From: a virus
Direction: 5' to 3' (one strand)
Length of the DNA: 37,788 bases
IMG/VR virus record: IMGVR_UViG_3300044911_003337
Span: 1-37,788 of that record
Of this stretch, positions 24,987 to 36,865 are shown one piece after another; positions within the stretch are counted from its first letter, which is position 1, and every line of letters begins with the position of its first letter. The notes beneath the pieces are model-generated. The model saw only the letters and a list, made by a program, of their open reading frames with translations, was not told where the DNA came from and did no database searches. A program made the translations under genes and the position numbers.

Positions 24987-24992
24987 GACTGC

Positions 24993-25002: not shown

Positions 25003-25035
25003 AATACCCTGCACTTTCTTTGCCTGGAAAGTTGT

Positions 25036-25064: not shown

Positions 25065-25092
25065 GTAGGGTAAGCAAACAGGAGAACGCACC

Positions 25093-25344
25093 ATGCAAGA
25101 AATGACTGACGTCACTATCTGTGGGATTCCTTGTACGGTTCCACAATCATGGGTGGATATGGTCGAGGCCTGTGCGGCCATGCCCCACCACACAGTCAAC
25201 CCGGATGGTTCCTATCGAACTCTTCGGAGATACGATTATGGCGTTCAATGCCGAGTTGGCTGCGAATGTACCGATTGCAGTCTGATTCGGCGGTACTACC
25301 AGTCCGTCGATGCCTATCGCAAAGATAATGGTTTGCCAGTTTGA
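25093..25344 (+). CDS. Unknown small Cys-rich protein
   Basis: An 83-aa product with GGAG before the ATG. It holds a cysteine cluster, CRVGCECTDC, after YGVQ, and two more cysteines near the start (ICGIPCTVP), so a small zinc-binding fold is possible. Its stop codon lies inside the -35 of the next promoter, so the two cassettes are fused without a terminator. Function unknown. Confidence 0.7.
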   Translation: MQEMTDVTICGIPCTVPQSWVDMVEACAAMPHHTVNPDGSYRTLRRYDYGVQCRVGCECTDCSLIRRYYQSVDAYRKDNGLPV

Positions 25345-25369
25345 CCCCGTGCGGGTAAGTGTTTAGAAT
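25341..25369 (+). promoter_or_regulatory. Class 1 promoter overlapping a stop codon
   Basis: TTGACC, spacer CCGTGCGGGTAAGTGTT, TAGAAT. The TGA of the previous gene (25342-25344) is part of the -35. Confidence 0.88.
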
Positions 25370-25396
25370 GTAGGGTACGCAAACAGGAGAACGAGA

Positions 25397-25783
25397 ATGG
25401 CTAGCACATCCAACAAGAAGGGTACGGTCACCCACACCATCGGCGAGTTTACCGCGAGCGTCGAGGTACTGTACGACGTCACGTTCGAGTATGACCCCGG
25501 CGTGTGGCGTACCGCCAATGGCGACGGTTGGCCGGGTACTCTGGACGTCGAGTTTGTCATCATCACCACTTCGGCCAGTGAGATTCTGGCGACCATCCGG
25601 GAGATCTGGGAGAACACCTACGGCGAGGATGGTCCGTCGTGCCCGCTGAGTCTGGCCGACGTCGTGGACCTGAAAGAGAACGCGTGGGCCGAACAGTTGG
25701 CCGAAGAGTTTGAACTCGATTCTGGCGACGAAGAGGACGACGACGCCCCCGAGCCCGACTATGAACCCCGAGAGGAGGATTGA
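25397..25783 (+). CDS. Unknown acidic protein
   Basis: A 128-aa product. The first 75 residues look beta-rich (TVTHTIGEFTASVEVLYDVT; GTLDVEFVIITTSASEI). The C-terminal 25 residues are almost all acidic (DSGDEEDDDAPEPDYEPREED), a DNA-mimic-like or disordered tail. GGAG precedes the ATG. A strong terminator follows. The acidic tail makes an inhibitor of a DNA-binding host protein conceivable, but nothing proves it. Confidence 0.75.
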   Translation: MASTSNKKGTVTHTIGEFTASVEVLYDVTFEYDPGVWRTANGDGWPGTLDVEFVIITTSASEILATIREIWENTYGEDGPSCPLSLADVVDLKENAWAEQLAEEFELDSGDEEDDDAPEPDYEPREED

Positions 25784-25789
25784 TGACCC

Positions 25790-25821
25790 AACCCGCGAGG
25801 AAATCTTCGCGGGTTTTGTTT
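25790..25821 (+). terminator. Intrinsic terminator
   Basis: AACCCGCGA pairs with TCGCGGGTT, then TTGTTT. Confidence 0.85.
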
Positions 25822-25828
25822 GGTCGGG

Positions 25829-25869
25829 CCAGACCCGATAATGCCCACTACCATACACATCGGGTCTGG
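25829..25869 (+). repeat. AGACCCGAT box, full palindrome
   Basis: Copy 9. CCAGACCCGAT is mirrored by ATCGGGTCTGG at 25859-25869. Confidence 0.9.
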
Positions 25870-25936
25870 CGGCGGTAGGGGTCTGTATGGTAGTCGGTAG
25901 GCTATTGTTCATTCTGGTATTTCGTGGGCCGATTGT

Positions 25937-25965
25937 TTGACCGGTTGCGGGTAGCAGTCTAGGAT
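25937..25965 (+). promoter_or_regulatory. Class 1 promoter for a leaderless gene
   Basis: TTGACC, spacer GGTTGCGGGTAGCAGTC, TAGGAT. The gene's ATG begins 6 nt after the -10. Confidence 0.9.
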
Positions 25966-25971
25966 TATGGC

Positions 25972-26763
25972 ATGGCGAACACCACCACCCAAGCGTATCT
26001 CACCCGTCCGCACCACCGACTTCTCTCGGATAGCGAAGCGAATACCAAGTTGGCCAAGAATCTGGCCCCCACTTGGGGTCTGAGTCTGGCCCAGCACAAC
26101 CTCTCGGGCTACAACGTCTGCCCCTATGCTACCCCGGGGTGCATTGCATCCTGCGTGGGCAAGTGCGGCATGGCCGGGGTATTCCCCAAGGTGATGCAGG
26201 CCCGCATTGCCAAGACCCGCCTGTTCTTTCACGACCGCCCGACTTTCCTTGGGCAACTGGTGAAGGAACTTCGCCAGAAGGATGCTCGCTGTGAGCGTTT
26301 GGGCGTTGTTGGGGTCGTCCGGCTCAACGTGTTCTCGGACCTGCCGTGGGAGAACTGGATCGACTTGTCCGCTTTCAAGAATCTTCGGTTCTATGACTAC
26401 ACCAAGAATCTGGGCCGGGCGTTCGCCGCTCTCGCCGACCTTCGGTACAGCAACTACCGGCTCTGCTACAGTGTCAACGAGGACAGCGATATGGACGATG
26501 TTCGGACTCTGCTCGCCAGAGGCGGGACGGCGGCTATCGTGCTGAATGTTCGGTACGTGAATGCCAACAACAAGGGTCCGATGCCCGATACCATCGACAA
26601 CATTCGGGTGATTGACGGCGACGTCAGCGACGACCGGGGTCTGGATCCCCGTGGTGTCTATGTCGGATTGCGGTTGAAGGGTCGAAAGAGTTTCCGGGCC
26701 GAAGCTCTGGCCACCGGATTCGCGTGCAACGTGCGAATCACGATCGACCGCAAGCAGGTCTAA
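25972..26763 (+). CDS. GP88-family phage protein
   Basis: The 263-aa product matches the phage gene product 88 domain: LSLAQHNLSGYNVCPYATPG, then a cysteine set (CIASCVGKCG), the segment MQARIAKTRLFFHDRPTFLG, VVRLNVFSDLPWE and FYDYTKN. The family is widespread in phages of many hosts; its biochemical role is unknown. The Cys cluster could bind metal or an iron-sulfur centre. The ATG sits 6 nt after the -10, so the mRNA is predicted to be leaderless. It is a single-gene cassette. Confidence 0.88.
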   Translation: MANTTTQAYLTRPHHRLLSDSEANTKLAKNLAPTWGLSLAQHNLSGYNVCPYATPGCIASCVGKCGMAGVFPKVMQARIAKTRLFFHDRPTFLGQLVKELRQKDARCERLGVVGVVRLNVFSDLPWENWIDLSAFKNLRFYDYTKNLGRAFAALADLRYSNYRLCYSVNEDSDMDDVRTLLARGGTAAIVLNVRYVNANNKGPMPDTIDNIRVIDGDVSDDRGLDPRGVYVGLRLKGRKSFRAEALATGFACNVRITIDRKQV

Positions 26764-26779
26764 CTTTGGGTGTTCGTTA

Positions 26780-26816
26780 GGGAGAGCCACCGGCGTTCGG
26801 TGGCCTCCCTTTCTTT
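26780..26816 (+). terminator. Intrinsic terminator
   Basis: GGGAGAGCCACCG pairs with CGGTGGCCTCCC (one bulge), then TTTCTTT. Confidence 0.85.
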
Positions 26817-26823
26817 GCTGGGC

Positions 26824-26833
26824 CAGACCCGAT
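26824..26833 (+). repeat. AGACCCGAT box, half site
   Basis: Copy 10, CAGACCCGAT, 41 nt before the next -35. Confidence 0.85.
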
Positions 26834-26864
26834 GCAAGGGTGGAAGAATCTTTGTGCAGAATGT

Positions 26865-26893
26865 TTGACCGGTTGCGGGTAGGTGTCTAGGAT
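26865..26893 (+). promoter_or_regulatory. Class 1 promoter for a leaderless gene
   Basis: TTGACC, spacer GGTTGCGGGTAGGTGTC, TAGGAT. The gene's ATG begins 6 nt after the -10. Confidence 0.9.
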
Positions 26894-26899
26894 TATGGC

Positions 26900-27109
26900 A
26901 TGAAGAACATCACATTCAAGTCCGACGACACGCCACTAAAGGTGGGAAATGACGTCCGCGTGGAAGTCGAGTTGCCTGATGGGTTGATGCTGGTCGTCGT
27001 ATTGACCCACGAAGGAATCATCACCGATCTATGGGAGAATGAGGAGCACATTGCTACCTCCTCTCGCATGTATAGTGAAACAGCCGACGACCTTTTGGAT
27101 AACCCTTGA
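26900..27109 (+). CDS. Unknown small acidic protein
   Basis: A 69-aa product, mostly beta-strand in look (DVRVEVELPDGLMLVVVLTH). The ATG lies 6 nt after the -10, so the message is predicted leaderless. Its stop codon overlaps the -35 of the next promoter. No known family. Confidence 0.7.
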   Translation: MKNITFKSDDTPLKVGNDVRVEVELPDGLMLVVVLTHEGIITDLWENEEHIATSSRMYSETADDLLDNP

Positions 27110-27134
27110 CTGCTTGCGGGTAGGCGTCTAGGAT
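27106..27134 (+). promoter_or_regulatory. Class 1 promoter overlapping a stop codon
   Basis: TTGACT, spacer GCTTGCGGGTAGGCGTC, TAGGAT. The preceding TGA (27107-27109) is inside the -35. Confidence 0.88.
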
Positions 27135-27161
27135 ATCGAGAGTCATCAAAGGAGAACGAAC

Positions 27162-27467
27162 GTGCCGAAGATTCAACTGTCGGATTTGCCTGTCATTCGC
27201 CTGGAGCACTACCGCCTGAGCGACATTCTGGACCCCCTTCCCACCGTCAAGGTGTGGTTCAAGGAGGAGGACTGGCGTGGGTTCACCTACGGCGACTGTC
27301 GCCATTCGCTCATCAATCCATCGGCGATTCTCGAAGGGCTCGACTGCGACCACACGTCCGACGACCTCTACCCCGTTCCCGAGGACGTTGACGAGGACGA
27401 GTGGCGGGCTTTCACCGGAATGCTCATGGAAATGGGCCACGAAGACCTGATCGACCTGGATATCTGA
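27162..27467 (+). CDS. Unknown acidic protein
   Basis: A 101-aa product with GTG start and AAAGGAG upstream. It is strongly acidic in the second half (DCDHTSDDLYPVPEDVDEDE; GHEDLIDLDI). The first half contains LPVIRLEHYRLSDILDPLP. No family recognised. A gap of 158 nt with leader-like features follows. Confidence 0.72.
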   Translation: MPKIQLSDLPVIRLEHYRLSDILDPLPTVKVWFKEEDWRGFTYGDCRHSLINPSAILEGLDCDHTSDDLYPVPEDVDEDEWRAFTGMLMEMGHEDLIDLDI

Positions 27468-27606
27468 TCGTCGTCGGCATACAATCTGTGTTCTGCCAGT
27501 CGCTCGAATGCCCGCCGGGACTACACCCTGAAACCTGTAAAGTCTCGGCAAATCTTTGTCTAGCGATTGGCGGTTTGTGAAGCCCTGCGAAATCTCGCGG
27601 GGTTTC
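27468..27606 (+). promoter_or_regulatory. Possible leader with attenuator-like hairpin
   Basis: CGGCATACAATC at 27476-27487 resembles the -10 of the class 2 promoters but lacks their GAAAC box. A hairpin (CCCTGCGA / TCGCGGGG, 27583-27602) followed by TTTCTT lies just before the GGGAGG of the gene at 27626. A hairpin ending before a ribosome-binding site resembles an attenuator, or it may simply end the upstream gene. Confidence 0.35.
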
Positions 27607-27625
27607 TTATTTGGGAGGTAAGCAA

Positions 27626-27901
27626 ATGCCGGTTCCGCAGCCCAACAAGACCATGATCCGAGGCGTCGTCGTCATTTCCAGGCAACTTCGCAATCTGGGC
27701 AACAGTTGGGTAGAGCCCGAAGAGATTGACGCAAACACCGCAACCGTCTGTGCTGATCTGGGTGCCGGTAAGTCGATCAAGTGCTCTCTGCGCCTCGAAG
27801 GAAAGACCATCGACAATCTTTCCATGGAAAACATCGACAATCTGATTCAACTGCTGACTGACGCCCGCGACCATTTCTCGAATGTGCATACTGTGATTTG
27901 A
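27626..27901 (+). CDS. Unknown accessory protein
   Basis: A 91-aa product from ATG 27626 with GGGAGG upstream (a start at 27611 is possible but precludes that site). It reads as beta-strands then a helix (MIRGVVVISRQLRNLGNSW; SIKCSLRLEGKTIDNLSMEN; IDNLIQLLTDARDHF). No motif recognised. A terminator and box follow. Confidence 0.7.
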   Translation: MPVPQPNKTMIRGVVVISRQLRNLGNSWVEPEEIDANTATVCADLGAGKSIKCSLRLEGKTIDNLSMENIDNLIQLLTDARDHFSNVHTVI

Positions 27902-27911
27902 CCGGCGCGGC

Positions 27912-27938
27912 AAATGCCTGGGATTTCCCGGGCATTTC
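27912..27938 (+). terminator. Intrinsic terminator
   Basis: AAATGCC-T-GGGA pairs with TCCC-GGGCATTT, then CTT. Confidence 0.75.
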
Positions 27939-27946
27939 TTGCGAGG

Positions 27947-27956
27947 CAGACCCGAT
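27947..27956 (+). repeat. AGACCCGAT box, half site
   Basis: Copy 11, CAGACCCGAT, 44 nt before the next -35. Confidence 0.85.
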
Positions 27957-27990
27957 AACTGTAGAAAACCAAAGAATCTTCTGCCAGAGC

Positions 27991-28019
27991 TTGACGGGCT
28001 GCGGGGGCGGGGCTAGAAT
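27991..28019 (+). promoter_or_regulatory. Class 1 promoter, later subtype
   Basis: TTGACG, spacer GGCTGCGGGGGCGGGGC, TAGAAT. From here on the first spacer bases are GGCTGCGGG rather than GGTTGCGGG. Confidence 0.85.
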
Positions 28020-28039
28020 CTGGTGTAAGGAGAACACCC

Positions 28040-28339
28040 ATGCTCAAGAATGCCGTCTATTTCGAGGTTCATTGGCGAATGGAAAACGAAGAAGGCGATG
28101 TAATGGAAGAGTGCAACGGCATCTGGCTCTCGCTGGCCAAGGCCCGCGATTGGGCACAAAATCTTCTGGTAAACGATCCTCTTCTTCGCCGAGATGAAGA
28201 AGGCCGCACCCACAAAATCAGGCGGTGTTTTGCCAACATTCGCCCGGTTGGTCGGACAGGGCGAGCCAAAAGGTGTATGGGTGGTGCGTGGTGGGGAACC
28301 GGCTCTCCTCGATTGCAGTGGGAAATCTTGGATTATTGA
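28040..28339 (+). CDS. Unknown small protein
   Basis: A 99-aa product with AAGGAG before the ATG. It begins AVYFEVHWRMENEEGDVMEE, reads as two strands and a helix (LAKARDWAQNLLVNDPLLRR), and ends with a Gly/Trp-rich basic part (RAKRCMGGAWWGTGSPRLQW). The next promoter begins 2 nt after the stop. No family recognised. Confidence 0.72.
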   Translation: MLKNAVYFEVHWRMENEEGDVMEECNGIWLSLAKARDWAQNLLVNDPLLRRDEEGRTHKIRRCFANIRPVGRTGRAKRCMGGAWWGTGSPRLQWEILDY

Positions 28340-28341
28340 AC

Positions 28342-28370
28342 TTGACAGGCTGCGGGTAGATGCCTAGAAT
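28342..28370 (+). promoter_or_regulatory. Class 1 promoter, later subtype
   Basis: TTGACA, spacer GGCTGCGGGTAGATGCC, TAGAAT. Confidence 0.9.
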
Positions 28371-28390
28371 CTACCACAAGGAGAACACCC

Positions 28391-28963
28391 ATGTCCGACA
28401 CACTCAAGAAACTTCAAGATTCGATCGTTGCCATTCAGAATCTCGAATGGGAGCGGACCATCACCCGCCGCGAGTATCCCCGCAACAACGAGATTGTGTT
28501 TTTGCGGCGTACTTTGGGCGAGCCCTACTTTGACCAAACCGACGACCGCTATAACCCCGGCTATGCCGAGGCGGCCCAATCATTTCGCAACCAGTTGGAA
28601 GATCTGGAGAAAAAGGCCCACGAGTGGTACAGTTTGGAGTTGGTTGACGAAGTGTGTAGCATGGGCAAACTCACAGATAACTTCTGGAGTGCCATGGACG
28701 AGCACTATACCAGCGTTCTGGGGCCTGGCGTGATAGATATCATTCGGTTGCGGGTCGAGGTCCAACTGCGGCGACAGAACGATATCAGCCGAATGGCGTG
28801 TTTGGACGAACACGATCTCCGAAGCGAATATGCGTCCTACATCTCCAAGCTCGACAGCCGAATGGCCGAGGCGGCTATTCAGATGGCCGAACTTGCAAAG
28901 GACATTGCCCTCAACCGAAAGGTCGAGTTGGTTCAAGGCCCCACCGTGCAGATTGCTATCTGA
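28391..28963 (+). CDS. Unknown helical protein
   Basis: A 190-aa charged protein with AAGGAG upstream. Long helices dominate (DTLKKLQDSIVAIQNLEWE; YAEAAQSFRNQLEDLEKKAH; SRMAEAAIQMAELAKDIALN), suggesting a coiled coil or helical bundle. A segment RYNPGYAEAA lies between. It has its own promoter and no terminator; the next promoter starts 2 nt after the stop. Function unknown. Confidence 0.75.
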   Translation: MSDTLKKLQDSIVAIQNLEWERTITRREYPRNNEIVFLRRTLGEPYFDQTDDRYNPGYAEAAQSFRNQLEDLEKKAHEWYSLELVDEVCSMGKLTDNFWSAMDEHYTSVLGPGVIDIIRLRVEVQLRRQNDISRMACLDEHDLRSEYASYISKLDSRMAEAAIQMAELAKDIALNRKVELVQGPTVQIAI

Positions 28964-28965
28964 AC

Positions 28966-28994
28966 TTGACGGGCTGCGGGTAGCGGCATAGAAT
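28966..28994 (+). promoter_or_regulatory. Hybrid class 1 / class 2 promoter
   Basis: TTGACG, spacer GGCTGCGGGTAGCGGCA, TAGAAT. The spacer ends in CGGCATAGAAT, the -10 context of class 2 promoters, while the -35 is class 1. Confidence 0.85.
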
Positions 28995-29002
28995 CCTGCA
29001 TC

Positions 29003-29167
29003 ATGCAAAACGACAAAAATTTCATGGTTGTGTTGGGTTGGCGCAACCAACGAATGGCCCTGAGAATGAGTGCCGACAGCAAGCCCGAAGTGCGCCGTCG
29101 TCTGGCCAAGTTGTTGCAGCGCACCAGATACGACCGAATCGTGAGTATTTGCCGATGCTCCTCTTGA
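29003..29167 (+). CDS. Small basic protein
   Basis: A 54-aa product, MQNDKNFMVVLGWRNQRMAL onwards, with an Arg-rich helix (RRRLAKLLQRTRYDRI) and a Cys pair near the end (ICRCSS). The ATG lies 8 nt after the -10, so it is nearly leaderless. The gene at 29155 starts inside its end, which suggests coupling. Confidence 0.65.
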   Translation: MQNDKNFMVVLGWRNQRMALRMSADSKPEVRRRLAKLLQRTRYDRIVSICRCSS

Positions 29168-29553
29168 CCTCGTCTGCCATGCTGTATACAGGAACAACCG
29201 GACAAAAGCCTGGTTGGTTTCACCTGCGATGCGACGAGGCCATAGGTGACTATTACCGATGGCTCTACTCACGAGCAGGACGAACCTGGTATTCGTGCCT
29301 GAACTCTGTTCACATCACGGTCATATCTGGTGAAAAGGATGCACGCATTGTGCAGCCAGAAGAGTTGACCCCTTGGGTTGGCGTCGGCATGCAGTTTGCC
29401 TATGAACCATTGGTCATGACAAATGGCCGGGCTTTCTGGGTTACTGTGCAATCCCCCGACATTCAGGACATGCGGCGATCGTTAGGGTTGCCCGCTCACC
29501 CGCATCTGCACATGACCCTGGGTAACATCAAGGGTAACAGACCAAAAATCTAG
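29155..29553 (+). CDS. 2H phosphoesterase-like protein, candidate anti-defence enzyme
   Basis: A 132-aa product with two HxT motifs in 2H phosphoesterase spacing: HITV at residues 53-56 and HMTL at 119-122. Between them are the family-like EELTPWVGVGMQFAYEPLVM and GRAFWVTVQSPDIQDMRRSL, then LGLPAHPHLHMTLGN. 2H enzymes cut or open cyclic phosphodiesters; the T4 member Acb1 destroys cyclic nucleotide signals of CBASS. This one may do that, or act on RNA ends like LigT. The substrate cannot be told from sequence. It lies 12 nt inside the end of the previous gene and close to ArdC. Confidence 0.72.
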   Translation: MLLLTSSAMLYTGTTGQKPGWFHLRCDEAIGDYYRWLYSRAGRTWYSCLNSVHITVISGEKDARIVQPEELTPWVGVGMQFAYEPLVMTNGRAFWVTVQSPDIQDMRRSLGLPAHPHLHMTLGNIKGNRPKI

Positions 29554-29564
29554 GTCTGTTGGGC

Positions 29565-29574
29565 CAGACCCGAT
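29565..29574 (+). repeat. AGACCCGAT box, half site
   Basis: Copy 12, CAGACCCGAT, 88 nt before the sigma gene's -35. A weak hairpin (CAGACC / GGTCTG, 29538-29558) precedes it. Confidence 0.85.
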
Positions 29575-29652
29575 ATTAGCCATGGTTGGAAATGATGAGA
29601 TCATACGAAACACTACCCATCATGATTGATGAATGTTTCTGGATTCATTGAC

Positions 29653-29681
29653 TTGACAGGCTGCGGGGTGTGGTCTAGGAT
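29653..29681 (+). promoter_or_regulatory. Class 1 promoter of the sigma factor gene
   Basis: TTGACA, spacer GGCTGCGGGGTGTGGTC, TAGGAT. It is the last class 1 promoter in the window. Confidence 0.88.
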
Positions 29682-29726
29682 GTGGGGTCATCAGCGTTGT
29701 CACACACACACAGAAGGAAATGAGAA

Positions 29727-30269
29727 ATGACCAACGAGCAACTGTTTGCCGCCAATCGCTTTGAGGAACTTTACACCGCGAATCAGGGCCTCATCCTCGA
29801 CCGCATCAACAAGATGCCCAACCACCTGCGGGACGAGGGCTTGGGCAACATCGCCTTCATGCGAGCCATTCGCAGCTACCGGGCCGATGCCGGTATTCGT
29901 TTCAGCACGTATCTCGTGACCGTGCTGCTCAACGAGATTCGCATGCTCCTGCGAGCCGAGAGCAACCGCACCCGCAACACCCGGCAGTACGCCGAGGGCC
30001 ACCACGAAAACGACTTTGTGACCACCGAACAGCCCGCCGACGTCGAGGAGCGATCCAACCAGACGTCCGAGCTTCGCCGGGTGCTGAACAGCGATCTGCT
30101 CAACGCCACCGAGAAGCGCATCATCTCGCTTCGGTTCGGTCTGGATGGTTCTCGCATGACCCTCGAAGAGGTGAGCCGCGAGCTTTCCATTCCCCGTAGC
30201 AGCGTGGCTGCCATGCAGCAGCGGGCAATGGACAAGCTGCGTACCGCCGTCGTGTCCAGCGTCGGCTGA
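29727..30269 (+). CDS. RNA polymerase sigma factor (sigma70 family)
   Basis: A 180-aa protein. Region 2 spans about residues 9-75, including the 2.3/2.4-like AGIRFSTYLVTVLLNEIRML. Region 4 lies about 115-177, with LNATEKRIISLRFGLDG and the helix-turn-helix TLEEVSRELSIPRSSVAAMQ. Region 3 is short and there is no region 1.1, as in alternative or phage sigma factors such as T4 gp55. AGAAGGAAATG precedes the start. It is driven by a class 1 promoter, and every promoter after it is class 2, so it is the prime candidate for recognising them. Confidence 0.92.
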   Translation: MTNEQLFAANRFEELYTANQGLILDRINKMPNHLRDEGLGNIAFMRAIRSYRADAGIRFSTYLVTVLLNEIRMLLRAESNRTRNTRQYAEGHHENDFVTTEQPADVEERSNQTSELRRVLNSDLLNATEKRIISLRFGLDGSRMTLEEVSRELSIPRSSVAAMQQRAMDKLRTAVVSSVG

Positions 30270-30310
30270 GCAGAATCGTACACCAGAAAACAGGAAAGGA
30301 GTTTCGCCTT

Positions 30311-30814
30311 ATGGCCAGCATCTTGCTTCCCCGATATTCGCCCATGAAATGGGATGACCACTTCTTCGGCACAATCTTCATGAGCATCTTCTTTGTCGGA
30401 ATCTTCTTTGGCGATCCGACTGCCAACGCCATCGAGAATCCCAGGTTCGAGAAGATTCTCGACGCCATCGAACAGGTGGAAAGCAGCGGGCGAGGAAAGA
30501 ACACCCCGGACGGCGACAACGGCAAGGCTATCGGGCCATTTCAGATTCACATGGCCTACTGGAGGGACGCCTGCCAGTACGATATCACGCTGGCCGAGTC
30601 GAACTACGAAAGGTGCCGGGAACCCGACTATGCCCGCCGTGTTGTTCGGGCCTATCTGCGCCGCTATGCCAAGGGAAATCTTGAGAATCCCGAAGTGTTG
30701 GCGCGGATCCACAACGGCGGGGGCGGTATTATGAGCAAGAATCGCAATGGCCGGGCGTGGCGCAACACCACCGAATACTGGAACAAGGTCAAGCAAGAAC
30801 TTGAGGAGAACTGA
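30311..30814 (+). CDS. Secreted i-type (destabilase-like) lysozyme
   Basis: The 167-aa product has a hydrophobic segment (FFGTIFMSIFFVGIFFG, about residues 18-34) ending in a likely signal cleavage site after TANA. The mature part resembles invertebrate-type lysozyme: FEKILDAIEQVESSG with the predicted catalytic Glu57, then KAIGPFQIHMAYWRDA, YERCREPDYARRVVRAYLRR and LARIHNGGGG. Such enzymes split peptidoglycan glycan strands, so it may act in lysis or entry. No holin is seen nearby. AAAGGAG precedes the start; the gene lies 41 nt after sigma without a visible promoter. Confidence 0.85.
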   Translation: MASILLPRYSPMKWDDHFFGTIFMSIFFVGIFFGDPTANAIENPRFEKILDAIEQVESSGRGKNTPDGDNGKAIGPFQIHMAYWRDACQYDITLAESNYERCREPDYARRVVRAYLRRYAKGNLENPEVLARIHNGGGGIMSKNRNGRAWRNTTEYWNKVKQELEEN

Positions 30815-30817
30815 GCT

Positions 30818-31006
30818 ATGGGTCGGCCACCTCCTACCGTTCCCGTCTATGCCCCGTGGATTTCGCGCGGAAAGGTGAATATCATCAAGTGCGCGCATTG
30901 CGGCAAGCGCAGAAGAAACCCAGATCAATGCACCGGTTGCGGTTCTACCCAGACTGTGATGGTCCAGGTGGATCGTTCGCCAAACCAAAAGGATCAACGC
31001 CAATGA
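30818..31006 (+). CDS. Small zinc-ribbon protein
   Basis: A 62-aa protein with two Cys pairs, KCAHCGKRRR and QCTGCGST, spaced as in a zinc ribbon, and a basic central part. It starts 3 nt after the lysozyme stop and overlaps the next start as ATGA, so it is in an operon running from the sigma gene. Zinc ribbons like this often bind RNA or proteins; the partner is unknown. Confidence 0.78.
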   Translation: MGRPPPTVPVYAPWISRGKVNIIKCAHCGKRRRNPDQCTGCGSTQTVMVQVDRSPNQKDQRQ

Positions 31007-31419
31007 GCAAGAAGCATGAACAATTGGTGATGCGGGCATTGAGGGCGGCACGAAATGCGCTGCACTCGGCCCAACTCACCCACGAAGTGATGTTCGAGGA
31101 AAGGTCGCCAGTGAAATCATTCGGGCCTACGGCCTTGGATGTGCTGAGGGGTTGCTGGTTTGGTACGCCCGAGCAGATCGAGAACGCCCTGATTCTCATT
31201 AAGCAGGCGACGTCCAAGCCCAAGCCCAAGACATGGCGCATTGTGTTGGAGGGAAGAAAGGGTCCCGATGAGTTGGTGCTGACCTGCCGCGCATGCAACC
31301 TTCGAGAAGCAACGAACTGGGTTTTTAATGAAGCAGAGGTTGATTGGGACCGATGGCGGCATCCCACCATCACCGTGGCCAAGCCCAGGCCCAAGCCCAA
31401 GACCAAGACCAAACGCTGA
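31003..31419 (+). CDS. Unknown protein with Lys-Pro repeat tail
   Basis: A 138-aa product whose ATG overlaps the zinc-ribbon stop. A helix-rich N-terminus (LVMRALRAARNALHSAQLTH) is followed by TSKPKPKTWRIVLEGRKGPD and a C-terminal KPRPKPKTKTKR tail. The K-P tract suggests a flexible, nucleic-acid-binding or anchoring tail. A strong terminator follows. Function unknown. Confidence 0.75.
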   Translation: MSKKHEQLVMRALRAARNALHSAQLTHEVMFEERSPVKSFGPTALDVLRGCWFGTPEQIENALILIKQATSKPKPKTWRIVLEGRKGPDELVLTCRACNLREATNWVFNEAEVDWDRWRHPTITVAKPRPKPKTKTKR

Positions 31420-31424
31420 AAGAG

Positions 31425-31452
31425 ACCCCGGCATTGTGTCCGGGGTTTGTTT
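31425..31452 (+). terminator. Intrinsic terminator
   Basis: ACCCCGG-CATTGTGT-CCGGGGT, then TTGTTTG. Confidence 0.82.
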
Positions 31453-31461
31453 GTGTCGAGG

Positions 31462-31471
31462 CAGACCCGAT
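31462..31471 (+). repeat. AGACCCGAT box, half site
   Basis: Copy 13 and the last one. It lies 35 nt before the first class 2 promoter. Confidence 0.85.
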
Positions 31472-31496
31472 GTTTAGAAAGAGCCAGAAAAATCTA

Positions 31497-31523
31497 GAAA
31501 TTGGCGAACGAGCGGCATAGAAT
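31497..31523 (+). promoter_or_regulatory. Class 2 promoter
   Basis: TCTAGAAAT, then AGCGGCATAGAAT; GAAA starts 21 nt before TAGAAT. There is no TTGAC and no TGCGGGTA. Confidence 0.75.
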
Positions 31524-31530
31524 GGACACC

Positions 31531-31938
31531 ATGATCAAACTCTCTGAAGCCGATTCTCGAATTGTTCTCTACGCCAAGGGCCACAGTGGTTCGTGGGGTG
31601 GGCGTGAGAAAGATGTGCTGGGCAAGACTCGCGCCATTCTGGCCGAACGAGCCGGGGTGCCTGCTTGGGGTATTACCGGCCATGATATCGTGGCCGTCTT
31701 GACCGAGCTTCTGACCACTCTCAAGATGGACAAGCTCGACCCCAAGTTCATGCAAAGTGTGATCTTTGGGTGCTTTTGGAACGAAGATGGCAGCAACGCG
31801 CTGGTGAATTTCATCAATGCCGTGTTGGCCAAGATTCAGACCATGCCTGTTCTTGACATGGAAGGCAACGTGCTGGTCGAGATTGCGGGCCTCAAAACCA
31901 CCGAGGAATCTCAGGAAAACTCAACTCCCGAGGCATAG
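31531..31938 (+). CDS. Unknown protein, predicted leaderless
   Basis: A 135-aa product from ATG 31531, which lies 7 nt after the -10 of a class 2 promoter; in-frame ATG 31522 falls inside that promoter. The protein has IKLSEADSRIVLYAKGHSGS, a helix (DIVAVLTELLTTLKMDKL) and a segment FGCFWNEDGSNALVNFI. It ends ENSTPEA, encoded by the next promoter. No family recognised. Confidence 0.72.
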   Translation: MIKLSEADSRIVLYAKGHSGSWGGREKDVLGKTRAILAERAGVPAWGITGHDIVAVLTELLTTLKMDKLDPKFMQSVIFGCFWNEDGSNALVNFINAVLAKIQTMPVLDMEGNVLVEIAGLKTTEESQENSTPEA

Positions 31939-31941
31939 AAT
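31915..31941 (+). promoter_or_regulatory. Class 2 promoter inside a gene end
   Basis: GAAAACTCAAC, then GAGGCATAGAAT. It overlaps the last codons and TAG stop of the upstream gene. Confidence 0.72.
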
Positions 31942-31948
31942 GAGCGGC

Positions 31949-32398
31949 ATGAAAACCACCCCCAAAACAATCTCAGGCGTTTCGATCGATCAGATCCACG
32001 AGCGTCTGCTTCAGGCTGATCGTAGAATCCGCGAGGCGCATCGCAGCGCAATCCAACGCATGCGGGGCAACTCAAGATTCCGTGAACCGGATTTTTGCCG
32101 TCCCGAGGTCCCAACGGCCATTCAGAAAGTCAGTCACTGCCTCTGCAACACCGGTCATGTCGAGGTCAATACCGATGATCTATATCTCCACACGGGCATT
32201 GGTCCCAAAGAGATTGTCGAGGCCATACTCGCAGCCGATCGGTATGCCGACAAGTATGAAGAGTATGTGAAGAAGTGGCACGGGCGGTACGACCGAATCG
32301 AAGCGGCTTACGAAGAAAGGCAAAAACCCTTTATCGACCAGCTAAAGGAACTGGTCGGCAAACAGGAATCTTCGGAAAACTCGACTCCCGAGGCGTAG
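31949..32398 (+). CDS. Unknown protein, predicted leaderless
   Basis: A 149-aa product. ATG 31949 is 7 nt after the class 2 -10; ATG 31940 overlaps the -10. It is helical and charged (IHERLLQADRRIREAHRSAI; VEAILAADRYADKYEEYVKK) with a middle HCLCNTGHVEVNTDDLYLHTG. Like the gene before it, it ends ENSTPEA. Function unknown. Confidence 0.72.
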   Translation: MKTTPKTISGVSIDQIHERLLQADRRIREAHRSAIQRMRGNSRFREPDFCRPEVPTAIQKVSHCLCNTGHVEVNTDDLYLHTGIGPKEIVEAILAADRYADKYEEYVKKWHGRYDRIEAAYEERQKPFIDQLKELVGKQESSENSTPEA

Positions 32399-32401
32399 AA
32401 T
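32375..32401 (+). promoter_or_regulatory. Class 2 promoter inside a gene end
   Basis: GAAAACTCGAC, then GAGGCGTAGAAT, overlapping the stop of the upstream gene. Confidence 0.68.
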
Positions 32402-32606
32402 GGCAAAGAAACTCAAGAGACGCGAGTGGATTCTCACCATTCGCATCAGCACCCTCAGCAGCGATGCGCCAGATGTGCGCGTAATAGGTGGTGATACCAT
32501 CTTCTACCGCCTCAACGACCTCGAAGATGCACGGTACTACCTTCGCAGGTATCGCAAAAAGAAGAAGACCAAACGAAAGGAAAGAAATGCCACGTTGGAA
32601 CACTGA
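32400..32606 (+). CDS. Small very basic protein
   Basis: A 68-aa product, MAKKLKRREWILTIRISTL onwards, with a basic C-terminal run (YYLRRYRKKKKTKRKERN). The ATG overlaps the -10 of the promoter at 32375, so it would have to be read from an upstream transcript, or the true start is later. Its 3' end overlaps the next gene. The charge suggests nucleic acid binding; unknown otherwise. Confidence 0.6.
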   Translation: MAKKLKRREWILTIRISTLSSDAPDVRVIGGDTIFYRLNDLEDARYYLRRYRKKKKTKRKERNATLEH

Positions 32607-32940
32607 ACAGATGAAGGCCGCTCTTGCTCCCCTTGGTGATGTTTATGATGGGGATTACGGGGGCGACTACGACACGACCAACATCTCCGTTTACCCCAAG
32701 GGACGCGAGAGCGGAGATTGCATCTCTGTTGTTGGTTTCCGTCCCGAGAAGTCGCTGAGCGAAGCGGAAAGAGACGATGCCGACGATGTGGAATGCATCG
32801 AACTTCGCAACAACGAGTCGGATTCGGGCGGCGGGCTTCAGAGTGATGACGAGGAAATCTGTGTCCTTTATGGGCGCATCATGGCTCTGGTGCGCAAGAT
32901 GGGATTCTACACGATTCCGCATCATGACCAGCTCTTCTGA
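32587..32940 (+). CDS. Unknown acidic protein
   Basis: A 117-aa product from ATG 32587, preceded by AAAGGAAAG. It begins PRWNTEQMKAALAPLGDVYD and has acidic regions (YDGDYGGDYDTTN; SEAERDDADDVECIELRNNE). It overlaps the basic gene by 20 nt, so the pair is translationally linked. A class 2 promoter starts 10 nt after its stop. Function unknown. Confidence 0.7.
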   Translation: MPRWNTEQMKAALAPLGDVYDGDYGGDYDTTNISVYPKGRESGDCISVVGFRPEKSLSEAERDDADDVECIELRNNESDSGGGLQSDDEEICVLYGRIMALVRKMGFYTIPHHDQLF

Positions 32941-32950
32941 GAAATCTACA

Positions 32951-32977
32951 GAAACCTGAACTCGCACGGCATAGAAT
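32951..32977 (+). promoter_or_regulatory. Class 2 promoter
   Basis: TCTACAGAAACCTGAAC, then CACGGCATAGAAT. This non-coding copy shows the full motif. Confidence 0.78.
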
Positions 32978-32984
32978 GAACACC

Positions 32985-33224
32985 ATGAGCACCAACAACA
33001 AGAAAACACCCAAAGCGTTTGATGGATGCGGATACGTGGTATTTGTGGTGGCCCGCGCCAGACGCAACGGTAAGTTTCCTGGAGTTGAGAAGATTTGCGA
33101 CAAGAAGTTCTTTTGTGATCGCTTCTGCGCCGACATGGACGCCGAGGTTCAGTGGCGCATGGATGGGCGCAAAGGCCCTGCCAATCCCTATCGCGTGTGG
33201 CGTGTGGTGATGACTGCGGAATAA
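32985..33224 (+). CDS. Small Cys-containing basic protein, predicted leaderless
   Basis: A 79-aa product from ATG 32985, 7 nt after the -10; in-frame ATG 32976 overlaps the -10. It holds GCGYVVFVVARARRNGKFPG and KICDKKFFCDRFCADMDAEV, then VQWRMDGRKGPANPY. The three cysteines near the middle might bind metal. The tRNA-like region follows 6 nt later. Confidence 0.7.
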   Translation: MSTNNKKTPKAFDGCGYVVFVVARARRNGKFPGVEKICDKKFFCDRFCADMDAEVQWRMDGRKGPANPYRVWRVVMTAE

Positions 33225-33226
33225 AC

Positions 33227-33339
33227 ACTTGGGTGGAACACGGCGTTTCCCGGGACTTGCAAGCGGGGGTGTTGAAGAGGTGCAACTCTTCGGCACTGCC
33301 GAAAACCCGGTTGAGAGGGTTCGATTCCCTTCCCATCCG
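33227..33339 (+). other. Interrupted tRNA-like element 1
   Basis: A clear T-arm (GAGGG-TTCGATT-CCCTT, 33315-33331) is followed by CCCATCC and G. Upstream GGGTGG (33231-33236) pairs with the 3' acceptor strand (6 of 7), and CCGGG (33250-33254) pairs perfectly with CCCGG (33306-33310) at the anticodon-stem distance from the T-arm. Between them are 51 nt, not 7. The D-arm is short. It is too odd to call a normal tRNA; it could be an intron-bearing, remnant or mimic tRNA. Confidence 0.35.
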
Positions 33340-33346
33340 TTTGGTT

Positions 33347-33468
33347 TGCATAGTAAGTTAATGACAGACTAGGACCGAGAATAGGGTTCAATCCCCAGCG
33401 TCTGCTGTAATGGCGGGATGGTGTATGTAACACGCGGTCCAGTGTGGGGTCGAGTCCCACCTATGCAA
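33347..33468 (+). other. Interrupted tRNA-like element 2
   Basis: TGCATAG (33347) pairs perfectly with CTATGCA (33461-33467). TA follows as positions 8-9, then a D-arm-like AGTT...GACT. GGACC (33372-33376) pairs with GGTCC (33436-33440), as an anticodon stem. The T-arm is GTGGG-GTCGAGT-CCCAC. The loop between the anticodon strands is 59 nt and contains another T-arm-like GGGTTCAATCCC. No U33-anticodon can be placed, so decoding ability is doubtful. Confidence 0.4.
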
Positions 33469-33475
33469 TTGTGGC

Positions 33476-33548
33476 GCACTCGTAGCTCAGTTGGTAGAGC
33501 AGCGGACTTTTAATCCGCTGGCCGTGGGTTCGAGTCCCACCGGGTGCA
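33476..33548 (+). tRNA. tRNA-Lys(TTT)
   Basis: A full cloverleaf: acceptor GCACTCG with CGGGTGC (one G-U), D-arm GCTC-AGTTGGTA-GAGC, anticodon arm GCGGA-CTTTTAA-TCCGC with anticodon TTT, T-arm GTGGG-TTCGAGT-CCCAC and discriminator A. CCA is not encoded. The next gene begins 2 nt downstream. Confidence 0.96.
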
Positions 33549-33550
33549 TT

Positions 33551-34018
33551 ATGACACACAACTTCTTTGACGATCCCCGCAAAGCGCAAATTCTGACTCG
33601 CCTCAACTTCTATCGAAACCTCATCGATGACGCCGGATCCACGCAGTTGGCGGGCCTTCTCTCTTGGCGCATCGAAAAGTTGTATGACGTTGATGGGGAT
33701 GAGTTCAAGAAATTCGATGGCGTGCCATTGACCAACAAGGACGGGACGCCTATCGTTCTGGATGACGACACTTTTCCGTACCACATCACTGGTACAGAGG
33801 CCTTTGGTATGTTCAGCAAAGGCGAGGATGGCCGCGACTATTTCCTGGGTATTCGCGGGGACACCCTGCGCACGATTATCGAGCAGAAGTTCGAGGACAT
33901 CCGCACCATGAGATTTCCTGTTTCTTACTTTCAGGTGGAATACGAAGGCAAACCGCATAACATCTGCAACCAAAGCAGCGGCCTTTGCTTTTCGTCATTG
34001 ACTCAATCGAACAAGTGA
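33551..34018 (+). CDS. Unknown protein after tRNA-Lys
   Basis: A 155-aa product starting 2 nt after the tRNA, so its mRNA would begin within or right after tRNA processing. The N-terminus is helical (NFFDDPRKAQILTRLNFYRN). The middle reads DGVPLTNKDGTPIVLDDDTF, and the C-terminus RFPVSYFQVEYEGKPHNICN. No ribosome-binding site is clear. No family recognised. Confidence 0.75.
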   Translation: MTHNFFDDPRKAQILTRLNFYRNLIDDAGSTQLAGLLSWRIEKLYDVDGDEFKKFDGVPLTNKDGTPIVLDDDTFPYHITGTEAFGMFSKGEDGRDYFLGIRGDTLRTIIEQKFEDIRTMRFPVSYFQVEYEGKPHNICNQSSGLCFSSLTQSNK

Positions 34019-34030
34019 AATAGAGGCACC

Positions 34031-34243
34031 ATGACAAACGACAAAAATCTCCGCACCTACATCGTGGCTTTTCGTTACACCACCAACGACCCGGAACTCG
34101 ACCCGTCCAAGTTTGATTTCCACAGTCTCTTGGATATTGGTCCGGGTGAGTTCATTTCAAATGTCGCGTCTTACAAAGTATCTACCACAGAAGAGGATAG
34201 GGTCGCATTTGAGGCAGATCAGATGAACCTATGGAGTGATTGA
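34031..34243 (+). CDS. Unknown small acidic protein
   Basis: A 70-aa product 12 nt after the previous stop. It reads YIVAFRYTTNDPELDPSKFD, then a short helix-strand part (LDIGPGEFISNVASYKV). AGAGG lies 5 nt before the ATG. It is probably cotranscribed with its neighbours. Function unknown. Confidence 0.68.
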   Translation: MTNDKNLRTYIVAFRYTTNDPELDPSKFDFHSLLDIGPGEFISNVASYKVSTTEEDRVAFEADQMNLWSD

Positions 34244-34251
34244 GAAAACAA

Positions 34252-34404
34252 ATGGAAGATTTCACCACATGGCGAATCAGCGACCTTGAGCACGAAGCCG
34301 AGAGAATCTACAGCTTGCTCTACAGAATTGTGACCATCAGAAATCCACAAACCGAACTGCGAGCCCGACTGGCCGCAGTCAACGCCGAGATTGAACGAAG
34401 GTAA
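34252..34404 (+). CDS. Small helical protein
   Basis: A 50-aa ORF starting 8 nt after the previous stop. It is a single amphipathic, charged helix pair (LEHEAERIYSLLYRIVTIRN; TELRARLAAVNAEIERR). The next gene starts 7 nt after its stop, so it belongs to the same operon. Function unknown. Confidence 0.65.
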   Translation: MEDFTTWRISDLEHEAERIYSLLYRIVTIRNPQTELRARLAAVNAEIERR

Positions 34405-34411
34405 CAAGCCG

Positions 34412-34630
34412 ATGCAAGACGAACCCCGAATGTTCATTAAGGATTTCCCCAAGTCTCTGCTTGACAAGTGCCCCAGTGACCAGAGAATGGGCCAGTGGAT
34501 CATCAACAATCGCCACAAGACGATGAGCATGATGTTCAACGAAGAGGTCGAGTGGCGGCGCAAGCTCTGGTATGTCTCGAACCAGGATTTCTGGAAAGAA
34601 TTTGCGGCTATCGTGGACGTCACGAAGTAA
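34412..34630 (+). CDS. Unknown small protein
   Basis: A 72-aa product from ATG 34412 with AAGG upstream; a TTG 21 nt earlier is less likely. It holds MFIKDFPKSLLDKCPSDQRM and WRRKLWYVSNQDFWKEFAA. Aromatic-rich and probably helical. A class 2 promoter follows 7 nt later. Function unknown. Confidence 0.68.
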   Translation: MQDEPRMFIKDFPKSLLDKCPSDQRMGQWIINNRHKTMSMMFNEEVEWRRKLWYVSNQDFWKEFAAIVDVTK

Positions 34631-34637
34631 ATCTGTA

Positions 34638-34664
34638 GAAACCTCAACATCAGCCGCATACAAT
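34638..34664 (+). promoter_or_regulatory. Class 2 promoter
   Basis: TCTGTAGAAACCTCAAC, then GCCGCATACAAT. Confidence 0.78.
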
Positions 34665-34694
34665 GGCGAGAACCCAGACACTCAAGGAGTCCAA

Positions 34695-35006
34695 ATGGAC
34701 GACAAGACGCTTCGACTCACGATGAACTTTGATCTTGCCACGCATGCCAGTTCGTTGCGCGAGGCTCTGGAACAGCAACTGATTCGGGTGACCGAAAAGA
34801 TCCACTACCAAAGCTCGGTCGCCTGGGCAAACGCAAAGCAGAAGTATACCTCTACCGTGTTCACCGAGATGGATCTGCTGATTCAGCAGTACCGGGACAT
34901 TCAGGAGATGCTGGCTGCCATGCACACCATCGTTGAGCAATCGGCCAACGTCTACAGCGGCGAGACCAACTATGACGCGATCGAGGCTGTCGTGACGTTT
35001 AGTTGA
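34695..35006 (+). CDS. Unknown helical protein
   Basis: A 103-aa product with AAGGAG upstream. It is almost wholly helical (SSLREALEQQLIRVTEKIHY; FTEMDLLIQQYRDIQEMLAA; MHTIVEQSANVYSG), suggesting a coiled coil. It has its own class 2 promoter. Function unknown. Confidence 0.73.
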   Translation: MDDKTLRLTMNFDLATHASSLREALEQQLIRVTEKIHYQSSVAWANAKQKYTSTVFTEMDLLIQQYRDIQEMLAAMHTIVEQSANVYSGETNYDAIEAVVTFS

Positions 35007-35014
35007 AATCTGTA

Positions 35015-35041
35015 GAAACCTCAACATCAGCCGCATATCAT
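35015..35041 (+). promoter_or_regulatory. Class 2 promoter
   Basis: TCTGTAGAAACCTCAAC, then GCCGCATATCAT; identical to the previous one except in the -10. Confidence 0.75.
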
Positions 35042-35081
35042 CTTGTGTGTGGTAGATCAAAGACACAAACGGAGAACGAAA

Positions 35082-35645
35082 ATGGGTCTGGACATGTATT
35101 TGGTTGGCAAGATTCACCTGAGCACCGCCGAGTTCTATTCGGAGTCAGCCCGGACCACGGCGCAGACCATCATCGACACCACCGGCGTTGCGCCCGACAA
35201 AGACAGCCCGTTCATGGACGTCAGCGTGAACGTCGGCTATTGGCGCAAGGCCAACGCCATTCACAACTGGTTTGTGACGAATGTTCAGGGTGGCGAGGAC
35301 GATTGTGGGCATCACATGGTCGGTCGTGACCAACTGGTGGCTCTGCGCGATCTGTGCCAGAAAGTGCTGGACGAATCCAAGACTGCCCCCGGGCAGTTGA
35401 AAGCCGGAACCACGTTTCATGGCGATGGAAAGGTCGAGCACCACATGGTCGCCGGTGAGGTCATCACAAACTCCGAAGTCGCCGCGTCTTTGCTGCCCAC
35501 CACCGGCGGCTTCTTCTTCGGCGACACCGAATACAACGACTACTACATGCAAGACCTGAAGGACACCATTGGCATCGTCGATAAGGCCGTGAAGCTGATC
35601 GACGAGAAGAAGATCGACTATTGTGAATATCACGCCAGTTGGTAA
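35082..35645 (+). CDS. Conserved phage protein of unknown function
   Basis: The 187-aa product begins MGLDMYLVGK and holds YWRKANAIHNWFV, EDDCGHHMVGRDQLVALRDL, LLPTTGGFFFGDTEYNDYY and DLKDTIGIVDKAV. From memory this set recurs in many phages and some bacteria as an uncharacterised family of about 170-200 aa. GGAG precedes the ATG. The conserved His, Asp, Cys and Tyr suggest an enzyme, but no reaction is known. Confidence 0.85.
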   Translation: MGLDMYLVGKIHLSTAEFYSESARTTAQTIIDTTGVAPDKDSPFMDVSVNVGYWRKANAIHNWFVTNVQGGEDDCGHHMVGRDQLVALRDLCQKVLDESKTAPGQLKAGTTFHGDGKVEHHMVAGEVITNSEVAASLLPTTGGFFFGDTEYNDYYMQDLKDTIGIVDKAVKLIDEKKIDYCEYHASW

Positions 35646-35671
35646 GAAACTTCACGGCGTCGGCATAGAAT
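35646..35671 (+). promoter_or_regulatory. Class 2 promoter
   Basis: AGAAACTTCAC, then GTCGGCATAGAAT; spacing is 1 nt shorter than in the others. Confidence 0.65.
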
Positions 35672-35743
35672 CTCAAGAGAACTGAAATGTGCCCGAATGT
35701 TTCGGGTGCAAAGAAGAACCAAGCGACAAAGGACGACAGAATC

Positions 35744-36037
35744 ATGGCCAAGAAGACCACCACCACCGCCACCAAGAAGAAGACCTCCCGCAAGACCAGC
35801 ACCGACACCGCGCTGCGTTCGATGATCGGCAAGCCCATCTGCCTGTTCTGCGCGAACTACATCTACAACGGTGTGCTCGTCTCGGTGAGCGACAGCGATG
35901 TGACCCTGGCGAACGCCCACATCGTGTACGAAACCGGCCCCCTGACCAACCCCACCTACAAGGACGCACAGGCCCTCTATGGCACGTCGTGGAACGTCAG
36001 CCGTGGGGCGATCGAGAGCTTTGGCCCCGGCAAGTAA
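35744..36037 (+). CDS. Unknown protein with Lys/Thr-rich tail
   Basis: A 97-aa product from ATG 35744 with AAAGGA upstream (ATG 35687 in frame is possible but has no such site). Residues 1-17 are K/T-rich (MAKKTTTTATKKKTSRK), like the start of the gene at 24304. The rest is beta-like (MIGKPICLFCANYIYNGVLV; SDVTLANAHIVYETG), with CLFC as a possible metal site. A strong terminator follows. Confidence 0.75.
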   Translation: MAKKTTTTATKKKTSRKTSTDTALRSMIGKPICLFCANYIYNGVLVSVSDSDVTLANAHIVYETGPLTNPTYKDAQALYGTSWNVSRGAIESFGPGK

Positions 36038-36073
36038 GCAACGGGGGAAGAATAGTTCACCTCGGCATAGTTC

Positions 36074-36104
36074 AGGCCATACTTGTGTATGGCCTGTTTT
36101 CTTG
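36074..36104 (+). terminator. Intrinsic terminator
   Basis: Perfect 9-bp stem AGGCCATAC-TTGT-GTATGGCCT, then GTTTTCTT. Confidence 0.88.
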
Positions 36105-36105
36105 A

Positions 36106-36836
36106 AAGAGTGTCACGGCGATGATGCCAAAAAAACATGGCCAATGGTCTAGGTGTTGGTCTGGGTCCAATTCCGAATCTCGTTCTGTGTCCCCCTCTGG
36201 TTCCAAACCTTACCCGGGGTCTGGGCATAGGTCTTGGATTAGCTGGAGAACGCAGCAATGACCCACTGGAGAGGAAAGTATAGATCTTTGTCCAAATGTA
36301 GGTCTAGATGCGCATTTAGAACCGGGGCTTGGAGCGGATCCGCGTCTTACACTACGTCTTGGACTGGGGCCAAGTCTTGGACTACGTCTTGGACTGGGAC
36401 TCGAAGGCGCACACCAAAATGAAAAAACCACCCAAATCTGAATCAGGATGGCTGTCACCCATCAGGTGGGGACACCGAAGCTGCGGATGCGGATCGCACC
36501 ACGCGTCGGGATCCGGAACCAAATCTTTCACCCAATCTTGGTGCGTACGCACGATCTGGTCTTGGAGTGGATCCGGGTCGATGCGGGGGTCTATGTGGAA
36601 ATGAAGAAATACAAAAACAGAAGCAATGTCAGTGCATGGACTGGGTCGTATGGGTGGTCGCGGTCTTGGGGCGCGAGTTTGATTGGGTCTTGCGACAGAT
36701 CCGGATCTGGGCTTCGATATAGGACCAAATCCCGAAGCGGACGCCGCCCCAGAAATTGGTCCGTATCTGTGTGTTTGACCGGATTGAGATATAGGTCTTG
36801 GTGCGGCGTTCCATCTGGTTTCTGATGACAAAACTA
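36106..36836. repeat. Degenerate GGTCTTGG-type repeat region
   Basis: About 730 nt without a promoter-linked gene. GGTCTTGG/TCTTGGACT motifs recur, most densely at 36344-36400. Read on the plus strand, pieces encode Gly-Leu-Gly tracts (a 48-codon ORF at 36137-36283 reads NGLGVGLGPIPNLVL), but frames shift and stops interrupt. It may be a decayed repetitive gene or non-coding repeat. Long minus-strand ORFs here (up to 149 aa) are Pro/Arg-rich mirror readings and I do not call them. Confidence 0.6.
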
Positions 36837-36838
36837 TA

Positions 36839-36865
36839 GAAAACTACAGATGAGCCGCATACAAT
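36839..36865 (+). promoter_or_regulatory. Class 2 promoter
   Basis: TATAGAAAACTACAG, then GCCGCATACAAT. Confidence 0.75.

Follow-up and report, generated by a model that had tools for sequence, protein, structure and literature searches.

In a T4-like phage, two promoter classes ordered around a sigma factor gene suggest a two-step transcription cascade

Phage sigma cascades are already known from phiEco32, 7-11, and SPO1; in SPO1, the phage sigma factors gp28 and gp33/34 switch the middle and late promoter classes in order. The sigma factors gp47 of 7-11 and gp36 of phiEco32 read phage-specific promoters in vitro, and the 7-11 promoters are bipartite, GTAAtg-16-aCTA (PMC4331800, PMC8948821). 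In T4, middle transcription keeps the sigma70 -10 element and replaces only the -35 contact, with the MotA box, (a/t)(a/t)(a/t)TGCTTtA, placed 12 bp from the sigma70 -10 (PMC2988021). Neither MotA/AsiA nor T4-like middle promoters occur in T4-like cyanophages, and in Ma-LMM01 gp55 is missing and only SigA-like promoters are used (PMC5780444). Studied members of the T4-like group rely on MotA/AsiA and gp55 to switch transcription, or do so without any new factor. Here we describe a 37,788-base virus record (IMGVR_UViG_3300044911_003337; the window, analysed at its full length), a fragment of a T4-like phage in which a sigma factor gene stands between two classes of promoter, class 1 before it and class 2 after it. 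This layout suggests that early genes make the sigma factor, which would then switch on the next gene block, and we regard such a two-step cascade, as read from the sequence, as the probable explanation. The literature searched, with partial coverage, yielded nothing closer than 7-11 and phiEco32, and no T4-like phage in which a sigma factor with regions 2 and 4 stands at the border of a bipartite promoter class of the phage's own.

As proposed for this locus, the phage sigma factors of 7-11 and phiEco32 guide host core polymerase to phage promoters while early genes are served by sigma70 promoters, and the fragment likewise carries a second, non-sigma70 promoter class. Unlike in those phages, the sigma factor, the motif, and the phage group are others, and the class 2 block here continues directly from the sigma unit. 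Set beside SPO1, the class 2 motifs differ.

A weight-matrix scan of both strands of the window found 16 class 1 promoters, all ahead of the sigma gene (19772 to 29653), which is where a first-pass annotation of the sequence had placed them. They lie in the right half of the window (about 19.7 to 37.8 kb), a series of small + strand open reading frames (ORFs), nearly all without a known family. The consensus is TTGACN-GGN-TGCGGGTAG-N2-GTCTAGAAT. At every site TTGAC, TGCGGG, and -10 bases 1, 2, and 6 (TA...T) are unvarying and the spacer is 17 nucleotides (nt). Scores range from 26 to 45 bits, with a runner-up site of 4.3 bits on either strand and a maximum of 10.9 bits in 40 shuffled windows. 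Class 1 promoters are therefore of host type (TTGAC-17-TAnnnT), with a fixed TGCGGG inside the spacer. The last of them was said to read the sigma gene, and indeed its predicted start site, taken like all others here as 7 nt past the -10, falls 39 nt before the sigma ATG.

19772..29681, + strand: block of 16 class 1 promoters, consensus TTGACNGGNTGCGGGTAGNNGTCTAGAAT, from the weight-matrix scan
19772, 20534, 21326, 21898, 22995, 23694, 24175, 25036, 25341, 25937, 26865, 27106, 27991, 28342, 28966, 29653, + strand: the class 1 sites (n = 16)
29653..29681, + strand: last class 1 promoter, TTGACA-17-TAGGAT, predicted start site 39 nt from the sigma ATG
29727..30269, + strand: phage sigma factor gene, 180 amino acids, first ORF of the sigma unit
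30311..30814, + strand: Destabilase-domain (lysozyme-like) ORF, second in the unit (Pfam PF05497, 2.5e-9)
30818..31006, + strand: 62-amino-acid ORF, third in the unit, with a weak zinc-ribbon resemblance under curated cut-offs
30856..31419, + strand: fourth ORF of the unit, no Pfam family; 30856 is the first start in frame
31423..31448, + strand: terminator-like hairpin closing the unit, ahead of the first class 2 promoter

Beyond this hairpin, a fixed pattern, GAAA-N12-15-SGCRTAnMAT, searched on both strands of the window, matches exactly eight sites (31497 to 36839) and no others; shuffled sequences average 0.04 to 0.055 matches and never give more than 1. These are the same eight coordinates at which class 2 promoters had been annotated. 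Their layout comprises AATCT at about -41, AGAAA(C/A)CT at the -35 position, and (G/C)GCATA(G/C)AAT as the -10, which reads CATAGAAT or CATACAAT; the conserved upstream block spans about 18 nt, roughly -41 to -23. The TTGAC and TGCGGG that all 16 class 1 sites keep are missing. The annotated description, GAAA(A/C) before TAGAAT or TACAAT with GGCA or CGCA just ahead of the -10, fits most sites and fails at 31497 (GAAAT), 35015 (TATCAT), and 32375 (GGCG). Sites 32375 and 31915 each fall at the 3' end of an ORF, and the two ORFs have the C-terminal residues ENSTPEA in common, so the likeness of the sites may be partly coding. Site 32375 has no start codon at a fitting distance and may not be a promoter.

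31495..31523, + strand: class 2 promoter 31497, -10 at 31518, leaderless ATG at 31531, box GAAAT
31906..31941, + strand: class 2 promoter 31915, -10 at 31936 over the stop codon of the preceding ORF, leaderless ATG at 31949
32366..32401, + strand: doubtful class 2-like site 32375, -10 GGCGTAGAAT, GGCG before the -10; coding duplicate of the 31915 site
32942..32977, + strand: class 2 promoter 32951, -10 at 32972, leaderless ATG at 32985
34629..34664, + strand: class 2 promoter 34638, -10 TACAAT at 34659
35006..35041, + strand: class 2 promoter 35015, identical 32-nt copy of the 34638 site, -10 TATCAT
35644..35671, + strand: class 2 promoter 35646, -10 at 35666, spacer 1 nt shorter
36830..36865, + strand: class 2 promoter 36839, -10 TACAAT at 36860

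Start codons provide an independent sign that both classes are promoters, because an ATG lies at or next to the predicted first message base in five class 1 and three class 2 cases. Measured from the start of the -10, the ATG lies at exactly 12 nt in the former (P = 9e-6, one preset offset) and at exactly 13 nt in the latter (P = 4e-4, one preset offset). Other genes, in either block, carry a normally spaced ribosome-binding site.

All class 1 sites come ahead of the first class 2 site, an order expected 1 time in 735,471 if sites are independent and about 1 in 5,000 after probable local duplicates are collapsed. Free mixing of the classes, which would have spoken against a switch, was not seen on searching the window: the order is strict, and a single class 2-like -10, at 27480, lies in block 1. 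The switch had been placed exactly at the sigma gene. That gene does fall in the boundary interval (29682 to 31496), but the interval also holds the Destabilase-domain ORF and two more ORFs before the terminator-like hairpin, so the switch coincides with the four-ORF sigma unit and not with the sigma gene alone. The arrangement might instead reflect common descent, with small genes and their promoters duplicated locally, both blocks read by host polymerase, and the sigma gene at the border by chance. Promoter copies are evident (19772/20534/21326; 21898/22995; 34638/35015; 31915/32375), and one given gene would fall inside the boundary interval about 1 time in 25, a chance that is not astronomically small. 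We nevertheless find this account improbable, as the order stays unlikely with copies collapsed, class 2 lacks the TTGAC and TGCGGG to which class 1 holds throughout, and the border gene would merely happen to encode a sigma factor.

The -10 element itself changes between the classes, since positions -15 to -13 read GCA in 7/8 class 2 sites and 1/16 class 1 sites; in class 1, 9/16 sites have GTC. For CA at -14/-13 the difference between classes has a Fisher P of 2e-4. SigE and SigK promoters have very similar CATA-type -10 elements, a SigK example being CATATAAT with a -35 AC (PMC3789822). This -10 type, CATAnnnT, is present in seven of the eight class 2 sites, the remaining one reading CGTAGAAT. 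The GAAAC box ends in AC at half of the sites (4/8), and its distance to CATA is 14 nt (13 in 35646).

The sigma protein belongs to the sigma-70 superfamily, with both region 2 and region 4 domains (Pfam Sigma70_r2, 2e-6, and Sigma70_r4, 5e-10, both above cut-off; NCBIfam sigma-70 family TIGR02937, 7e-19, above cut-off); region 3 is missing. An AlphaFold model has two helical domains and a low-confidence linker (residues ~91 to 103), and Foldseek matches it to primary sigma factor structures across both domains. The best named subfamily is SigK (2e-15), with scores far under the membership cut-offs (57 bits versus 252 for TIGR02846, 56 versus 299 for NF004471). Residues N69, E70, I71, M73, and R76 of region 2.4 (N-E-I-x-M-x-x-R) are common to this protein and ~90 SigE/SigK-type sequences. 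Region 4.2 reads PRSSVAAMQQ, versus TRERIRQIE in sigma70 types; its -35-reading helix has R157 and S158 as in SigE/SigK, without the E, R, R, and Q found after R157 in sigma70-type factors. Because of this difference, the phage sigma factor is unlikely to read TTGAC. The sporulation sigma factors SigE/SigK of Bacillota are thus the nearest named family, alike in region 2.4 and in the CATA-type -10 and unlike in score, branch length, -35 helix, and the absence of region 3; judged by its sequence, the phage protein is SigK-like in parts, not a SigK. T4 gp55 is also a sigma factor encoded by a T4-like phage. Identity with gp55 was rejected, as BLASTP detects no similarity and the protein has no match to phrog_234; gp55 (phrog_234) itself matches region 2 only weakly and region 4 not at all. 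The T4 late -10, TATAAATA, is absent from both strands of the window.

A cascade had been proposed in which either the sigma factor or a MotA-like activator switches on the second block. The layout and the -10 type favor the former, for + strand genes only: class 2 is likelier to be read directly by the phage sigma factor, because its -10 departs from that of class 1 at -15 to -13 and agrees with CATAnnnT, the -10 type of the nearest sigma family. The sigma family and the class 2 -10 type were each found separately, and their agreement supports this assignment. Under sigma appropriation, host sigma would instead read the class 2 -10, a phage activator at the AATCT..AGAAACCT box would replace the -35 contact, and the phage sigma factor would serve other (late) genes outside the fragment. 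T4 middle promoters work in this way, and the fragment resembles them: in a T4-like phage, the second class swaps the -35 contact for another box near -30, the conserved upstream block is long, TAnnnT -10s are common to both classes, and TAGAAA-17-TAGAAT agrees with 9/12 sigma70 consensus bases. Unlike T4, which adds no new sigma factor for middle transcription and keeps the sigma70 -10, this fragment has a changed -10 flank, which appropriation does not predict, and a sigma gene at the boundary. Further, the class 2 box is AGAAACCT and not a MotA box, with a different spacing, and none of ~25 small ORFs scanned matches MotA, AsiA, or a convincing helix-turn-helix, although a scan can readily overlook such proteins and part of the genome is missing. 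We consider appropriation unlikely.

An alternative host sigma factor could also read class 2, in which case the phage sigma gene would be accessory and redirect host genes, a role proposed for sporulation sigma factors borne by phages. Sigma factors encoded by phages and altering host dormancy have been described (PMC9429907). The class 2 promoters, however, are in the phage's own genome, directly after the sigma gene, and nothing shows that the host sporulates; we give this explanation very little weight.

The cascade remains the best reading of the layout, and a partly supported one. The 16 host-type class 1 promoters would serve the first gene block, the last preceding the four-ORF unit that the sigma gene leads and the hairpin ends. 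The phage sigma factor would then displace host sigma on core polymerase; its region 2 would read the CATA-type -10, and the GAAAC box would be read by the altered helix of its region 4. About seven class 2 promoters (GAAA at -35, GCATA(G/C)AAT as -10) would serve the next block, which would come on once the sigma factor has accumulated. The class 1 promoter before the sigma gene, the position of that gene in the boundary interval, and the hairpin after it at 31423 all speak for this order of events.

Several points weigh against it. The eight clear class 2 promoters first annotated come down to about six independent sites, with 32375 doubtful, and a perfect class 2-like -10 stands at 27480 within the class 1 block. 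Class order alone is no proof of a switch, as tandem duplication can build blocks too; block-wise duplication could likewise cluster like promoters. The conserved upstream block is wider than a lone sigma factor normally needs, and a helper protein could possibly act alongside the sigma factor at class 2. Going by its consensus, the SigK -35 AC would lie about 3 bases farther from CATA than GAAAC does. In region 2.4, R72 (EIR) resembles SigF/SigG, which loosens the SigK link, and in the sigma tree the protein sits on a very long branch, so that the tree settles nothing on family. No relative was found with both the sigma factor and class 2: searches with the sigma factor, the 17154 to 19223 ORF, and the DNA polymerase gave distant relatives only, and none of the loci compared has class 1 or class 2 arrays. 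Two sets of nucleotide matches were set aside. The class 1 core gave 18 single matches in viral contigs, unrelated by weight matrix, and the class 2 core gave one isolated match in each of two near-identical contigs, judged to be chance.

A fuller version of the cascade can be offered only tentatively. A sigma factor with regions 2 and 4 and a sporulation-like specificity, reading GAAAC/GCATA, would replace or supplement MotA/AsiA middle transcription. A further factor, from phage or host, would bind the fixed TGCGGG spacer element that marks the early promoters, and many mRNAs would start at AUG. If the cascade is true, a phage transcription program and a new sigma specificity are readable from one metagenomic fragment. 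The sigma factor and its promoters, an internal hybrid promoter included, would then form a defined pair that could be used for orthogonal expression.

Two sites in the class 1 block have class 2 features.

28966..28994, + strand: class 1 promoter whose -10 (GGCATAGAAT) is of class 2 type, predicted near-leaderless 54-amino-acid ORF at 29003
27457..27485, + strand: class 2-like -10 GGCATACAAT at 27480, lacking GAAA, within the class 1 block and upstream of the terminator at 27579 to 27606

The first had been called a hybrid of the two classes. It does combine a class 1 -35 and spacer with a class 2 -10, but it has no GAAA box, and one class 2-type flank by chance among 16 class 1 sites is not very unlikely. 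In the cascade it would perhaps be read by both holoenzymes. The 27480 site scores 20.7 bits, versus a class 2 shuffle maximum of 18.1, and would possibly yield a short RNA of ~115 nt ending at the strong terminator at 27579 to 27606. Between 27480 and 27606 there is another class 2-like site, a degenerate one, GAAACCTGTAAAGTCTCGGCAAATC.

The left half of the window carries, on the minus strand, the B-family DNA polymerase (gp43), primase, thymidylate synthase, RegA, gp62, gp44, and gp45, with an intein-bearing ribonucleotide reductase. The core replication genes gp43, gp44, gp45, gp62, and RegA match PHROG families, as expected of a T4-like phage. Top protein identities to known T4-like phages are 47 to 51%, so no near relative was available for comparison. 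The cascade model covers + strand genes only; the minus-strand replication genes carry neither promoter class in the both-strand scan. A weak class 2-like GAAAA-N16-TACTAT with GCA before the -10 occurs on the minus strand before gp45 (14344 to 14366); at 13.6 bits, under the shuffle maximum, it was not counted as class 2. The divergent intergenic region at 19313 to 19407 contains a perfect 49-nt tandem duplication, with minus-strand TATACA/TCTACA-18-TATAGT pairs that may serve the replication genes. The ribonucleotide reductase occupies 1236 to 4550, and its intein carries a LAGLIDADG domain.

Further elements accompany the promoters. The spacer TGCGGG, at a fixed position in 16/16 class 1 promoters, exceeds the needs of host sigma70 and may mark the binding site of another factor. 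The + strand has 13 copies of AGACCCGAT between 19695 and 31463, 12 of them 41 to 107 nt upstream of a class 1 promoter; the thirteenth is 35 nt ahead of the first class 2 promoter (31497), and none occurs later in the window. Four of the 13 form a pair with an inverted ATCGGGTCT, and the element is possibly a regulator site or an RNA element. Several class 1 promoters also have a GTTAGGGTTYTGTTCTTTCTTG-like stretch on their upstream side (19739 to 23663 and 26776).

The fragment stops at 37788, and class 2 perhaps runs on past its end. In an Rfam scan of the window, a tRNA is the sole match above threshold. Ahead of the tRNA-Lys (33476), three tRNA-like T-arm sequences occur at 33225 to 33475, which ARAGORN does not call as tRNAs. 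Finally, ~700 bases at 36100 to 36835 are without a clear ORF and abound in GTCTTGG words.

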